Origin: Thermomicrobiaceae bacterium
GTDB lineage: Bacteria; Chloroflexota; Chloroflexia; Thermomicrobiales; Thermomicrobiaceae
Assembly (NCBI GenBank): GCA_014874455.1
Contig: JADBJL010000086.1
Coordinates: forward strand, 4,234 to 56,010
Length of the DNA: 51,777 nucleotides
Direction: 5' to 3'
In this document: positions 33,225 to 39,110 of the stretch, piece after piece
How the letters are laid out: every line of letters starts with the position of its first letter
Numbering within the stretch: the first letter of the stretch is position 1
The notes under the pieces: model-generated
What the model saw: the letters and a program-made list of their open reading frames with translations, nothing else
Told to the model about the DNA's origin: nothing
Database searches by the model: none
Position numbers and translations under genes: made by a program

Positions 33225-34013
33225 ATGGATCTGGGACTGCGCGGCAAGGTGGCGCTGGTGCCGGCTGCGAGCCAGGGATTGGGCAAGGCGGTGGCGCTGG
33301 CCTTCGCTCGCGAGGGCGCACGCCTCGCCATCTGCAGCCGGAGACTCGACGCCATCGAGGCCACCGCCGAGGAAGCCCGCCGGCTCGGCACCGAGGTCCT
33401 CGCCTTGGCCGCCGATCTCACGCGAGCTGAGGACATCGCGAACCTGGTGCAGCGGACGGTCGAGCGCTTCGGTGGGGTGGACATCCTGGTCACCAACGCT
33501 GGCGGGCCGCCGGCCGGGCGGTTCGACGACTTCGACGACGCGGCCTGGCAGGCCGGCTACGAGCTGACCTTGCTCAGCGCGATCCGGCTGATCCGGGCTG
33601 CTTTGCCCTCGATGCGACAGCGTGGCGGAGGCGTCATCATCACGATGACCTCTTCCTCGATCAAGCAGCCGATCCCGAACCTGATCCTTTCCAACGTCTT
33701 CCGGGCCGGCGTCGCTGCCCTGGCCAAGACGCTGGCGGACGAACTCGCGCCGGACAAGATCCGCGTCAACAACGTGGTGCCGGGACGGATCGCCACAGAG
33801 CGGGTCGCCCAGCTCGACCAGGCCAATGCGGCCCGGCTGGGAGTCGATGTCGAGACGGTGCGCCAGAGCATGCTGGCCCAGATCCCGCTCCGTCGCTACG
33901 GCGAGCCGGAGGAGTTCGCCGACGCGGTCGTCTTCCTGGCGTCCGAGCGCGCGAGCTACATCACCGGGGCGACGCTCCAGGTGGACGGCGGGATGATCCG
34001 CAGCCTGTGGTAG
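33225..34013 (+). CDS. short-chain dehydrogenase/reductase (SDR)
   Basis: A 262-aa SDR with the NAD(P) loop (PAASQGLGKA, about residues 13-22), NAGGPPAG, the SSSIKQP segment and the C-terminal ITGATLQVDGGM. The catalytic YxxxK is absent: where YSASK is expected the sequence reads LSNVF. The family's usual Ser-Tyr-Lys mechanism therefore cannot be assumed. This SDR subgroup is known but poorly characterised. The ATG at 33225 has AAGGAGAGAGGGG upstream. The promoter and operator suggest co-regulation with the catabolic operon at 7.6-25 kb. Confidence 0.88.
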   Translation: MDLGLRGKVALVPAASQGLGKAVALAFAREGARLAICSRRLDAIEATAEEARRLGTEVLALAADLTRAEDIANLVQRTVERFGGVDILVTNAGGPPAGRFDDFDDAAWQAGYELTLLSAIRLIRAALPSMRQRGGGVIITMTSSSIKQPIPNLILSNVFRAGVAALAKTLADELAPDKIRVNNVVPGRIATERVAQLDQANAARLGVDVETVRQSMLAQIPLRRYGEPEEFADAVVFLASERASYITGATLQVDGGMIRSLW

Positions 34014-34098
34014 GGGTAGTGAATTTGCCTTCTTAACCGAAGGCTTCCACCCGCCACCGGAGCACGCACTCCAAGGCGGGTAGTTATGCTGATTATTA

Positions 34099-34128
34099 TG
34101 TAGGGATGAATCATCATTCGTCCCTGCA
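34099..34128. repeat. 30-nt palindromic repeat, copy 1
   Basis: The arms of this 30-nt palindrome can pair at 11 of 13 positions, the two others being G-U pairs, around a 4-nt centre. It matches the reverse complement of 41781-41810 at 24 of 30 positions. Confidence 0.6.
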
Positions 34129-34242
34129 CCTCTTTCGGACATTCTCTCAAGGCGTGGTGCAGCCTGCTCAGACCCATATAGCTGATCAGACTATCATTCT
34201 GGCTTGCAGCCACTTTCGTTTATCTCCTGGTAAAAGTGCTGG

Positions 34243-34270
34243 TTGACTTCGCCTCCTGCAGCGCTATGCT
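34243..34270 (+). promoter_or_regulatory. promoter of the ABM-like gene
   Basis: TTGACT (34243-34248) and TATGCT (34265-34270) with a 16-nt spacer. The start codon is about 100 nt further on, leaving a long 5' leader. Confidence 0.6.
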
Positions 34271-34303
34271 GCACGTAGCGCGGTTCCCTATCGCTCGGCG
34301 AGA

Positions 34304-34334
34304 CGCTTGCCCGCTGCAGCGCGGCGGGCAAGCG
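34304..34334. repeat. leader hairpin
   Basis: CGCTTGCCCGC (34304-34314) and GCGGGCAAGCG (34324-34334) are perfect 11-bp arms in the untranslated leader, 38 nt before the start at 34372. It could be an attenuator or a stability stem. No U-run follows. Confidence 0.55.
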
Positions 34335-34371
34335 GGATGCAGTAGTCTACGGCCTCGGAGAGGAGAAGGCG

Positions 34372-34668
34372 ATGTTCGGTACCGTCGCTCACGCGCACGT
34401 CAAGCCAGGGCACACGCAAGCTGTCATTAGCCTCATGGAGGAGTGGAACCGGGAACGCAAGCCCAAGGTGAAAGGCGCGCTGGCAAGCTACCTGTTCCGC
34501 TCGGAGAAGGATCCGAACGAGATGATCATGGTCGCTGTCTTCCAGGATCGCGACAGCTACTACGCCAACGCCGCCGATCCGGCGCAGGACCGCTGGTACC
34601 GGCGGCTGCGCGAGCATCTGGCCGAGGATCCGGTCTGGGAAGACGGCGAGATCATCGCCCAAGCCTAG
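34372..34668 (+). CDS. ABM-like (dimeric alpha/beta barrel) protein
   Basis: A 98-aa protein with the ferredoxin-like order of the ABM/DUF fold: VAHAHVKPGHTQAVISLMEEW, then FRSEKDPNEMIMVAVFQD, then YYANAADPAQDRWY. It resembles small stress-related or monooxygenase-like proteins. The ATG at 34372 follows GAGAGGAGAAGG. It is preceded by its own promoter and a long structured leader. The function is unknown. Confidence 0.75.
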   Translation: MFGTVAHAHVKPGHTQAVISLMEEWNRERKPKVKGALASYLFRSEKDPNEMIMVAVFQDRDSYYANAADPAQDRWYRRLREHLAEDPVWEDGEIIAQA

Positions 34669-34775
34669 CCGAGCCTCGCCGCGCCGGGGCGAGCGCCTTC
34701 ACCGCTCGACGATCCCGCGCTCGCCCCGGCGCGTTCCAAAGCCGGCTGCTCCACGTGAGGCGACACCCCGCGTGC

Positions 34776-35054
34776 TCAACTTGGTGCCTGCTGCAACAGG
34801 CGCTCGATCGTCCCGGCCGTCTCGACCGGAAGTTCAAGGCGGAAGCCCTCTGCGGTCAACAGGTAGCCGTTCTCGGTGTGGCCGCTGATGACCGGTTGCA
34901 ACCGGCCGTCCTCGCCCACCCGCCAGAGGATGAACCCTGCCTCGATCTTGCCGTGGTACGGGCGCACCTCAAGCCGGTACCCATCGGCGGCCACTTCCAC
35001 TGGCCGCCACTGCCGGCGCATCATCAGCTTCACGAGCCGCTTGGCGAGTTTCAC
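34776..35054 (-). CDS. hypothetical protein, 92 aa
   Basis: A small basic protein with no known domain. It is predicted to be mainly beta-rich (FILWRVGEDGRLQPVISGHT and onward). The GTG at 35054 is preceded by GGGAGGA with good spacing. It has no signal peptide. The gene is in the same direction as the dUTPase-like gene upstream, from which a 150-nt gap with a large hairpin separates it. Confidence 0.55.
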   Translation of the reverse strand: MKLAKRLVKLMMRRQWRPVEVAADGYRLEVRPYHGKIEAGFILWRVGEDGRLQPVISGHTENGYLLTAEGFRLELPVETAGTIERLLQQAPS

Positions 35055-35095
35055 CCGATCCTCCCGCGCTCAGCTCCTCCCTCATACCTGAGTAT

Positions 35096-35174
35096 GTTCG
35101 ACTGGCCGGCCGGCGCGCAACCGGCCACCCCGCTGCTCTCTCCGGGGAACGTGCTGCCGGCTGGCCAGTCGAAC
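35096..35174. repeat. 79-nt near-perfect inverted repeat
   Basis: The outer arms GTTCGACTGGCC at 35096-35107 and its complement GGCCAGTCGAAC at 35163-35174 pair exactly. The match continues for about ten more bases with a few mismatches. A second small stem (CCCCG/CGGGG) lies in the loop. This can form a cruciform DNA or a long RNA hairpin between two minus-strand genes, and it may be a terminator, an attenuator or a mobile-element relic. Confidence 0.7.
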
Positions 35175-35204
35175 CTACCGGTCGCTCCGGTTGAGAGAAG
35201 GGAG

Positions 35205-35759
35205 TTACTGGTTCCGGTCGCCGGTCTCCCCCTGGTAGGCGCCCCGGTATCCCTCGACAGCCGGCTCGGCCAGCCAGTGGAACACGAGCTGGACGATGCG
35301 CGCCTGGCGCTCGAGCACGAAGCCGGCCGGGTTGTAGACCACGAGGAGCGCCACGCCCTGGCCGGAGTAGCCGGCATCCCAGACCGCGGTGTGCAGCGCC
35401 GCGCCGCAGCGCAGCAGGCTCGAGCGCGGCCGGGCGTACGCCATGCAGGTCGTAGGGAGATTGACCGTCTCGCTGAAGCGCACCAGGTAGGGCCCGGGCT
35501 CCAGCACCCAGCGGCCGGAGCTATCCGGCGGCAGCGGCTCGGTAGCCGGCAGGCGCCGGTCGGCGTTATCGACCGTCACTGCGCCAGCCTCGCTGAAGCG
35601 CGCGACCGAGGCCACGGTGAGGTCGATGCCGTTCGGCTGGAGCTGCGCCTCCGGGTCCGGCAGGCCGGCAACCAGCGGTGGCTCGCGCCGCAGCAAGGTC
35701 CGGATCTGCTCTCCACTCAGCACCCCTCCAAGGCTCCCGGGCACAGGCTGTTGGATCAT
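35205..35759 (-). CDS. dUTPase/dCTP-deaminase-fold protein
   Basis: A 184-aa protein of the dUTPase/dCTP deaminase superfamily. Visible motifs are QPNGIDLT (about residues 41-48), ARPRSSLLRCG (109-119) and VWDAGYSG (126-133). The aspartate in WDAGYSG matches dUTPase motif 3. At the position of the dCTP deaminase catalytic Glu the sequence reads ALLVVYN, so deamination is unlikely. It therefore probably hydrolyses or binds a deoxynucleotide. The start at 35759 (GAGGAC upstream) is preferred to 35777. A TTGACT/TAGCCT promoter is at 35840-35811. Confidence 0.75.
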   Translation of the reverse strand: MIQQPVPGSLGGVLSGEQIRTLLRREPPLVAGLPDPEAQLQPNGIDLTVASVARFSEAGAVTVDNADRRLPATEPLPPDSSGRWVLEPGPYLVRFSETVNLPTTCMAYARPRSSLLRCGAALHTAVWDAGYSGQGVALLVVYNPAGFVLERQARIVQLVFHWLAEPAVEGYRGAYQGETGDRNQ

Positions 35760-35810
35760 CCTACCGTCCTCGTCCATCGCAACCCGCGTACTGCGCGCTC
35801 GATCTCCGAG

Positions 35811-35840
35811 AGGCTACCCGCTGCGCTCCTCACCAGTCAA
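35811..35840 (-). promoter_or_regulatory. promoter of the dUTPase-like gene
   Basis: TTGACT (35840-35835) and TAGCCT (35816-35811) with an 18-nt spacer on the minus strand, about 50 nt before the start at 35759. Confidence 0.5.
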
Positions 35841-35881
35841 CCCGCACCGTGCTGCGACCGGCCCATGAGCCAAGAGCAGGC

Positions 35882-35910
35882 TTGACAACTCGAACGACGG
35901 TAGCTATCCT
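35882..35910 (+). promoter_or_regulatory. strong promoter of the metal-import operon
   Basis: TTGACA (35882-35887) and TATCCT (35905-35910) with exactly 17 nt between them. The operon start is at about 36071, leaving a long leader. Confidence 0.7.
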
Positions 35911-35917
35911 CAAGCCG

Positions 35918-35937
35918 GATTTTAGCTTTATCTAATC
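35918..35937. promoter_or_regulatory. possible metal-regulator operator
   Basis: GATTTTAG (35918-35925) and CTAATC (35932-35937) form an imperfect AT-rich inverted repeat at the likely transcription start. This is the usual place and base composition for a Zur or MntR site. Confidence 0.35.
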
Positions 35938-36070
35938 TCGCCGATCGGCGAAGAAGCGATGCCTCGCGGCCGGGAGCGAGAGAGGGACGGCCGGATCGAA
36001 CGAGACGCGTAGCGGACATCGGCGAGGCACGGCGTTGCAGATCAGGTGTCTAGCGGGCAGAAGCGAGCGT

Positions 36071-37072
36071 ATGCGACACACGCAGGGACGAGGCCACGAA
36101 CTGGCGACAGCCAGGCACCGCGTACGCCTCTTCTCCCTCGTCCTGCTCGGCCTCTTCGCCCTGGCGTTGAATAACTCACTCGTTGCCTGTCGTCCGGTCG
36201 CCGGCCAGGCCAGGGACATCGCCGCCCGGCGGGTTCGCGTGGTAGCGACCACCACCATCGTCGCCGACGCTGTCCGCGAGGTCGGCGGCGACCGGGTCGA
36301 GATCGTGACGCTGATGGGACCGGGAATCGACCCGCACCTCTACAAGGCCAGCGAGGGCGACGTCCTCCGTTTGGCCAGCGCGGACGTCATCTTCTACAAC
36401 GGTCTCCACCTCGAAGGGAAGATGGGCCACGTGCTCGCCCGGGTCGGCGAGCGGGTACCGACGGTCGCGGTCGCCGAGCGGATCGACCCCGCGCTCCTGC
36501 GCAGGCCGCCCGAGTTCGAAGGCGCGTACGACCCTCATGTCTGGTTCGATGTCCGGCTCTGGATGATTGCGGTCGAGGGCGTGCGCGACGGGCTGATCGC
36601 AGTCGACCCGACTCACGCCGCCGTCTACCAGGCGAACGCCGAGCGCTATCTCGCCGAGCTGGACGAACTCGACCGCTGGGTACGCCACGAGGCCGCGAAT
36701 ATCCCGCCCGAGCGACGCGTGCTGATCACCGCCCACGACGCCTTCGGCTACTTCGCCCGTGCCTACGGCTTCGAGGTCTACGGGCTCCAGGGCGTGAGCA
36801 CAGCAGCCGAGGCCGGCGTCGCCGACGTGCAGGCGCTGGCCGACCTGATCGTCGAGCGGCGCATCCCGGCCATCTTCGTCGAGACCTCGGTGCCGCCTCG
36901 CTTCATCGAGGCGGTGCAGGAAGCGGTCCGCGCCCGTGGCTTCGAGGTCAGGATCGGCGGCCAGCTCTACTCCGATGCGCTCGGCGATCCCGGCACGCCG
37001 GCCGGCACCTACGTGGGCATGGTGCGCTCCAACGTCGAGACGATCGTGCAGGCGCTGGCCGGCGAGGGCTGA
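36071..37072 (+). CDS. Mn/Zn ABC transporter substrate-binding lipoprotein
   Basis: A 333-aa metal-binding protein of the ZnuA/PsaA family, anchored by a lipobox (NSLVAC, Cys40). The metal site is suggested by GIDPHLYKASEGD, DPHVWFDV, TAHDAFGYFA and FVETSV. The long linker helix between the lobes (AVYQANAERYLAELDELDRW) is typical. The His-rich loop of zinc ZnuA is absent, which favours Mn or general metal use, but this cannot decide specificity. The ATG at 36071 has only a weak ribosome binding site. Confidence 0.88.
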   Translation: MRHTQGRGHELATARHRVRLFSLVLLGLFALALNNSLVACRPVAGQARDIAARRVRVVATTTIVADAVREVGGDRVEIVTLMGPGIDPHLYKASEGDVLRLASADVIFYNGLHLEGKMGHVLARVGERVPTVAVAERIDPALLRRPPEFEGAYDPHVWFDVRLWMIAVEGVRDGLIAVDPTHAAVYQANAERYLAELDELDRWVRHEAANIPPERRVLITAHDAFGYFARAYGFEVYGLQGVSTAAEAGVADVQALADLIVERRIPAIFVETSVPPRFIEAVQEAVRARGFEVRIGGQLYSDALGDPGTPAGTYVGMVRSNVETIVQALAGEG

Positions 37073-37108
37073 CCAGCGACGATGCCTGTCGACCGGAGAG
37101 GACAGAGC

Positions 37109-37945
37109 ATGGCTGATCGACATAATGGAAAGGTTCCCGCCGTCGAGGTGCAGGACCTCACGGTCGCCTACCGCGAGCAGCCGGCGCTCTGGGACGTCGA
37201 CCTGACCGTTCCGTCCGGGGTACTGCTGGCCATCGTCGGCCCGAACGGCGCCGGCAAGACCACGCTGCTCAAAGCGATCCTCGGGCTGCTCCGGCCGGTG
37301 GCGGGGCAGGTGCTGGTCTTCGGCCAGCCGGTGGTGCAGCAGCGGCGCCGGATCAGCTACGTGCCACAACGCGGTAGCGTTGACTGGGATTTCCCCACCA
37401 GCGTCCTCGACGTCGTCATGATGGGCACGTATGGGGAACTGGGCTGGATTCGCCGACCGGGCCGCCGCGAGCGGGAGCGGGCGTTGGCTGCGCTGGAGCA
37501 GGTGGGCATGCGCGAGCTGAGCGACCGGCAGATCAGCCAGCTCTCCGGCGGCCAGCAGCAGCGCGTCTTCCTGGCCCGGGCGCTAGTGCAGGATGCCGAC
37601 ATCTATCTTATGGACGAGCCCTTCCAGGGTGTCGATGCTCTCACCGAGCGCGCCATCGTCACGCTGCTCCAGCAGCTCCGCGCCCAGGGCAAGACCGTGA
37701 TTGCCGTCCACCACGACCTGCAGACCGTGCCGGAGTACTTCGACTGGGTCATGCTCCTGAATGTCCGGCGCATCGCCTGCGGGCCGGTGGCCCAGGTCTT
37801 CAACGAGCACAACCTGCGCTTGACCTACGGCGGGCGCTTCGCCATGGCGGCCTTCGCCAGAGAGGTGGACGAGACCGCTCCGGCAGTCATCGCCCCAGAC
37901 CGGTCGAGGAGCGGAGGAGGCGACCATGGCACTGGCGCTGCCTGA
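37109..37945 (+). CDS. metal ABC transporter ATPase
   Basis: A 278-aa ATPase with Walker [10 protein letters not shown], the signature LSGGQQQR and Walker [13 protein letters not shown]. The opening [19 protein letters not shown] and the segment [20 protein letters not shown] are typical of MntB/ZnuC proteins. The start at 37109 follows GGAGAGGA. It overlaps the first permease gene by 20 nt. Confidence 0.93.
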
Positions 37946-39110
37946 TCTGGCACTCGACTACACGCTGCGCACCGTGGCGCTGGGCGCGATGCTGCTCGGC
38001 CTGAGCAGCGGGGTGGTCGGCACCTATGCCGTGCTCCGCCGCGAGAGCCTGCTCGGCGACGCCATGTCGCACGCCGCGCTGCCGGGGATCGCGCTCGCCT
38101 TCCTGCTCACCCGCAGCAAGGAGTCGGCCCTGCTCCTGGCCGGCGCCGTCGCGGCCGGCTGGCTCGGCGCGCTGCTCGTGAGCGCGATCACCCGCACCAC
38201 GCGCGTCAAGCTGGACAGCGCCCTCGGCCTGATCCTCTCGGTCTTCTTCGGCTTCGGCCTGGTGCTGCTCACCTTCATCCAGAAGCAGCCGGACGCCAGC
38301 CAGGCCGGGCTTGACCGCTTCCTCTTCGGGCAGGCCGCCTCGCTCCTCCGCCGCGATGTCCAAGTCATGGCCGCCGGCACGGTCGCCGTCTTGCTGGCGG
38401 TACTGCTGCTCTGGAAGGAGTTCAAGCTGCTCGTCTTCGATCCCGACTTCGCCCGCGTGCTCGGCCTGCGCGTCCGCCTGCTCGAGGTGATCCTGACCTC
38501 GATGATCGTGCTGGCGATCGTGGTCGGCCTCCAGACGGTCGGCGTGGTGCTGATGAGCGCGATGGTGGTGGCTCCGGCCGCAGCCGCGCGCCAGTGGACT
38601 GACCGGCTCGGGCTGATGGTGCTGCTCAGTGCGCTGTTCGGGGTGGTGGCCGGCATGAGCGGCGCGCTGCTCAGCAGCCTGACCCCGCGGCTCCCGACCG
38701 GCCCGACGATCGTGCTGGTCGTGAGCGGCCTGGTGCTCGTCTCACTGCTGTTCGCTCCCAACCGCGGGCTAGTCTGGAACTGGGCACGCGAGCGCGCCCG
38801 GCGCGACCAGGTACGGGCGGAAGGGATATTGCGGCAGCTTGCCGCGCTGGCCGAGCACCACGGTTCGCTCGAGCATGGGCATCCGATCGCCGTGCTCCGC
38901 GCCTCCGGCTGGTCGCCGGAGCAGATCGAGCACGTGCTCCATGACCTGGAGTCGGCGGGCTACGTCCGGCAGGTCAGCGCGGACCGCTGGGTGATCACGG
39001 CCGAGGGTATGGCCCGCGTGCGGCCCGCGGTGGAGGCCGGTAAGGCAGGCAACGAGCTGGCACGCCCGGCAGCGAGGGGCACTGAGGTGACGGGTGAGGG
39101 GCAGCCATGA
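37926..39110 (+). CDS. metal ABC transporter permease with a C-terminal winged-helix-like tail
   Basis: A 394-aa permease with the eight-span ABC-3 core (about residues 1-285). It carries an unusual cytoplasmic C-terminal extension of about 110 residues. The extension has a helix-rich, winged-helix-like pattern: [12 protein letters not shown], then [19 protein letters not shown], then [14 protein letters not shown]. This resembles DtxR/MntR-type DNA-binding domains fused to permeases in some bacteria. The final 25 residues are disordered. The gene overlaps the next by 4 nt (ATGA). Confidence 0.88.

Follow-up and report, generated by a model that had tools for sequence, protein, structure and literature searches.

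Hairpin terminators that lack a U-tract are the closest described systems to the element considered here. U-less hairpin terminators near stop codons are described in 13 bacterial genomes (PMC8355165), and PMC5335608 describes "I-shaped" terminator hairpins without a U-tract in GC-rich bacteria such as mycobacteria. Termination by U-less hairpins is disputed, as work cited in PMC5335608 found that the mycobacterial RNA polymerase needs a U-tract. The term "intrinsic terminator" was absent among the matches listed in our literature search, and the terminators of the group to which this genome belongs may still be described.

We identify a large inverted repeat downstream of a dUTPase gene in a 51,777-nucleotide stretch of Thermomicrobiaceae DNA, hereafter the window; the source bacterium is a relative of the heat-loving Thermomicrobium. 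We propose, with a probability of roughly 0.68, that the repeat is the 3'-end hairpin of the minus-strand dUTPase transcript, either terminating it or setting its end. We favor this reading because the hairpin comes right after the stop codon, belongs to a class of stems for which gene ends are enriched, occurs in single copy, falls outside Rfam, and appears to turn over quickly between species. The features discussed are collected in Table 1.

Table 1. Positions in the window of the hairpin, the genes on either side of it, and the elements associated with them.
Feature	Positions	Strand	Remarks
Inverted repeat/hairpin	35092..35178	-	Two arms (35092-35114; 35156-35178); loop region of 41 nt containing an inner stem of about 5 bp
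dUTPase gene (dCTP deaminase/dUTPase superfamily)	35205..35777	-	Upstream of the hairpin; start may be 35759
Conserved 92-aa protein gene	34776..35054	-	GTG start; downstream of the hairpin
Conserved block TTGCGC-N18-CATACT-C	35090..35120	-	Holds the right arm; seen when three congeneric genomes are aligned
Second GC-rich hairpin	34680..34733		17 perfect pairs; 20-nt loop; no T run

On the plus strand, GTTCGACTGGCC (35096-35107) pairs with GGCCAGTCGAAC (35163-35174) through 12 exact outer pairs, followed inward by one G/T position, which is a G-U wobble in plus-strand RNA and an A-C mismatch in minus-strand RNA, and then by six further pairs. A repeat finder gives the arms as 23 nt each, matching at 21/23 positions (91% complementary) and lying 41 nt apart, and the predicted fold places the inner stem within the loop region. 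The predicted energy of positions 35080-35190 is -63.5 kcal/mol on the plus strand (z -6.5) and -61.4 kcal/mol on the minus strand (z -5.6), with 0/200 shuffles as good in either case. The stem score of 17 compares with a best of at most 15 in dinucleotide shuffles of the whole window, and an equal stem arose in 0/100 of these. An earlier note had claimed a large inverted repeat at 35096-35174 with outer arms of at least 12 exact pairs, extended with few mismatches, and an inner stem; these points are confirmed. Its placement of the repeat between two small genes holds as well, their products being 92 aa and about 190 aa long and both genes lying on the minus strand, as does its observation that a U-tract is lacking: both strands were checked and neither has a T run beside the hairpin. 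The minus-strand tail after the hairpin reads TCAGGTATGA, in which the longest T run is 1.

Read along the minus strand, the hairpin starts 26 nt past the dUTPase stop codon and ends 37 nt ahead of the 92-aa gene, within a gap of 150 nt between the two genes; the gene calls come from a codon-usage-based caller and are approximate. The dUTPase assignment draws on a Pfam DCD match and on NCBIfam NF002598 (deoxyuridine 5'-triphosphate nucleotidohydrolase), which scores 178.5 bits against a cut-off of 130. The 92-aa protein has no match in Pfam and NCBIfam profile searches and is present in 17/41 genomes, its own included. By eye, the 37 nt between the hairpin and the 92-aa gene contain GGGAGGA, which resembles a ribosome-binding site. 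Farther along, the second hairpin of Table 1 lies 358 nt from the first, between the convergent 92-aa and ABM-domain genes. We regard it as the same kind of element, and its place between convergent genes, a terminator position, counts in favor of the 3'-end reading. A hairpin is also predicted, by folding without a shuffle control, at the corresponding place in two relatives introduced below, G003 and Thermalbibacter longus. In the other direction, on the plus strand, positions 36071-39110 hold a probable metal ABC transporter set, comprising a ZnuA-like binding protein recognized by a profile match followed by an ATP-binding protein and a permease assigned by reading the translations; a sigma-70-like site, TTGACA-17-TATCCT, lies upstream of the set at 35882-35910.

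Strong stems are concentrated at gene ends in this genome. Our survey covered the window and 20 stretches of 20 kb, together 451,777 bases or about 13% of the 3.37 Mb genome, and contained 38 stems with a score of at least 12: 12 in co-directional gaps, five in convergent gaps, one in a divergent gap, 19 in coding sequence, and one at a stretch edge. Density per kb was 0.337 in co-directional and 0.393 in convergent gaps, against 0.050 in coding sequence and 0.064 in divergent gaps, so that such stems are 5-8 times denser past gene ends than in genes or in divergent gaps, the last figure depending on a single stem. At a score of at least 14 the numbers are small (four co-directional, two convergent, one divergent, four coding), and the hairpin studied here and its neighbor share the top score among the surveyed stems. 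A stop codon lies within 63 nt for 12 of the 17 gene-end stems with a score of at least 12, and 16 of the 17 lack a T-rich tail, defined as at least 5 T among the first 8 bases past the stem, on every reading strand that was checked; the remaining stem (L135) has 5 T in its first 8 bases. Runs of 3 T on one strand occur in 3/17 and longer runs in none. Three of the 17 occupy one convergent gap within 250 nt (L129:11571-11815) and may not be independent; two of these share CGGTCGCCCCTA and are perhaps repeats. Further strong hairpins whose tails are not T-rich lie near predicted gene ends at L118:3106-3140, L134:19395-19430, and L136:1920-1948.

A second survey, of predicted folding in the 90 nt past stop codons, points the same way. 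Values of z < -2 were reached at 21/145 gene ends, compared with 1/49 regions upstream of divergent genes and 4/90 inside genes, and values of z < -3 at 13/145, 0/49, and 1/90, respectively (with gene ends compared to the two control sets combined, Fisher p is about 0.0016 at the first cut-off and 0.0015 at the second). The remaining 124/145 gene ends fall short of z < -2, with a median z of -0.26 in co-directional and 0.15 in convergent gaps. This survey used only gaps of at least 90 nt, and the 90-nt limit clips our hairpin, which is why it stands outside the listed top cases. From the stem enrichment and the 90-nt folds together it follows that strong hairpins are a recurring feature of a minority of gene ends in this genome, and that most of them have no T run. 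A standard terminator scan misses the strong hairpins sampled at gene ends in this GC-rich Chloroflexota genome, since most are devoid of U-tracts: a consensus scan for T-run terminators across 34000-36200, which accepts loops of 3-8 nt only, found one against 0.9 expected and reported neither hairpin. The earlier note had called the repeat much larger than a usual terminator. That description is fair; the absence of a U-tract, to which it was coupled, is not distinctive here, given that 16/17 gene-end stems are alike in this respect.

We suggest that, once RNA polymerase has passed the end of the dUTPase gene, the emerging transcript would form a stem of about 18-20 bp that is rich in GC. This stem, so close to the stop codon, would most likely end transcription as a terminator without a U-tract, perhaps aided by NusG or Rho. 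Alternatively, it may block 3' exonucleases and so define the mRNA end. The 92-aa gene would then be transcribed partly by read-through and partly from a start of its own, perhaps a promoter overlapping the right arm. The genome encodes Rho, so hairpins of this kind need not be its main terminators.

The source genome, a Thermomicrobiaceae MAG (G003, CALKCJ010000032.1), and T. longus CFH 74404 (G001) belong to one genus, and among the genomes compared these three are the members of that genus that carry the locus, each with the dUTPase-92-aa gene order. A DNA search with the repeat region in 41 genomes, the source and 40 others, gave matches at E <=0.01 in seven: in the source itself, in G003 at the orthologous place, and in five further genomes, where the matches span about 19-44 nt. 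We read these last five as chance, including that in G002, which was inspected individually and in which neither neighboring gene (dUTPase or 92-aa) was matched. The G003 place is 90% identical over 78/91 nt with the same genes on either side, and we therefore take it to be vertically inherited. Regions downstream of the dUTPase gene were taken from the window and from G003, G001, G012, G009, and G004, where the protein ends looked right. Of the 37 pairs of the predicted minus-strand structure, G003 keeps 28 as standard pairs, with six mispaired and three gapped, and T. longus keeps 20, with 13 mispaired and four gapped. Identity is 21/23 in G003 and 18/23 in T. longus for the right arm, and 18/23 and 13/23 for the left. 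Set against shuffles, the fold of the G003 region is moderately better (z -2.5 for 101 nt and -1.0 for 160 nt) and that of the T. longus region is no better (z 0.71 and 0.22), from which it follows that the hairpin is not needed throughout the genus. In a second genus the corresponding gaps do not fold clearly better than shuffles (z -1.37 in G012, -1.72 in G009, -0.45 in G004). By these predictions the structure is weaker in G003, is not predicted in T. longus, and appears to turn over quickly between species.

The adjacency of the dUTPase and 92-aa genes on one strand, which could place them in one operon, counts against termination between them. The hairpin would then be an intercistronic stem that protects or separates the halves of a common message with little termination, so that the second gene would be attenuated or its part of the message would differ in stability. 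The shared strand and the 150-nt gap fit such an operon, as does the gene order, which extends beyond the genus to G004, G009, and G012 of the second genus, with gaps of about 130-335 nt. Against it, the two genes are apart in other family members: in G008, G011, and G014 they sit about 14-16 kb from each other on a single contig, on opposite strands, and in G005 they are convergent and about 0.9 kb apart. In addition, a conserved block that weakly resembles a promoter lies directly before the 92-aa gene. We consider an operon with an intercistronic stem unlikely.

The overlap of the right arm with this conserved block is the hairpin's one mildly unusual point. As judged from the alignment, the block is possibly the promoter of the 92-aa gene. 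Its agreement with the sigma-70 consensus is weak (3/6 and 4/6, counted by eye), and a scan for sigma-70-type promoters did not report the TTGCGC-N18-CATACT block; for these two reasons we infer a promoter here rather than assign one. The pattern TTGCGC-N18-CATACTC occurs once each in 3/11 genomes searched, all three in the genus, and is absent from the other eight; its presence in the three congeners is by construction, since it was written from those sequences. The better conservation of the right arm and the 92-aa leader is more in keeping with an overlapping promoter or leader than with a structured RNA. One could imagine a single segment serving two genes, in which the conserved right arm would be the 92-aa promoter and the left arm would be shaped to pair with it as half of the dUTPase terminator, so that in the source species a fast-evolving left arm would make promoter DNA double as a terminator half. 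We hold such dual use to be quite improbable.

It is more doubtful still that the repeat acts mainly as DNA, with inverted half-sites TTCGACTGGCC bound by a putative regulator of the 92-aa gene and the right site overlapping its promoter. A DNA role of the right arm would lead one to expect the better conservation that this arm has. However, the left half-site is broken in both G003 and T. longus, and the 15-nt arm motif, allowing at most one mismatch, occurs five times in the genome, both arms included, against nine for a reversed control pattern. An 11-nt motif with at most one mismatch occurs three times in the window against 1.29 expected, which we also count against half-sites. A LexA-box reading, considered by eye, was dropped.

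A structured small RNA gene or riboswitch, one of the identities offered in the earlier note, is highly improbable. The very stable fold on both strands would suit it, yet the structure is poorly conserved: it decays in the congeners, and compensatory changes, which that note had named as the thing to look for, amount to one two-sided change among 37 pairs, counted over three sequences only. An Rfam 15 covariance-model search of the window gave 0 matches at the gathering score and, at E <=1, a single chance-level match to a microRNA family (E 0.3; 19.1 bits, where the gathering score is 90), so that no credible match was found, and a scan for tRNA and tmRNA found none.

Copies elsewhere in the genome were also sought; excluding self and arm-to-arm matches, the best of 39 others has E 0.143, leaving nothing beyond the arms matching each other. 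A mobile-element relic, whether MITE-like or resembling an integron attC site, is accordingly the least credible reading of all, for although the repeat is an imperfect palindrome after a small gene, it stands in single copy where a miniature inverted-repeat element would have several, and its flanking gene pair is kept in the three genomes of the genus that carry it, the source included. The core boxes of integron attC sites are GTTRRRY/RYYYAAC; the arm ends GTTCGAC/GTCGAAC, compared by eye with this motif, do not fit, and an attC site was rejected.

Among the three identities that had been suggested, then, a regulatory stem stands if this is taken to mean simply a hairpin at a gene end, and the RNA and the relic do not. 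The original observation was correct, and the element looks ordinary, neither a new RNA nor a mobile element. For annotation, this cautions against taking a strong cruciform at a gene end in this genome for a new RNA.

Set beside known terminators, the 3'-end hairpin shares with the canonical Rho-independent type a GC-rich, stable stem-loop after a stop codon and differs from it in having no U run directly past the stem. The U-less, or I-shaped, type calls for a stable stem close to a stop codon with no U trail, which the locus has, and for reduced transcription of the DNA beyond it, which this hairpin may bring about. The likeness to the I-shaped terminators of PMC5335608 extends to a GC-rich, near-perfect stem, a position shortly past the stop, and the missing U run; unlike the mycobacterial examples, the hairpin here has a loop region of 41 nt with a fold of its own, belongs to a different phylum, and is a candidate terminator. 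The place of this predicted hairpin, 26 nt past a stop codon, and its lack of poly-U also match the hairpins described in PMC8355165.
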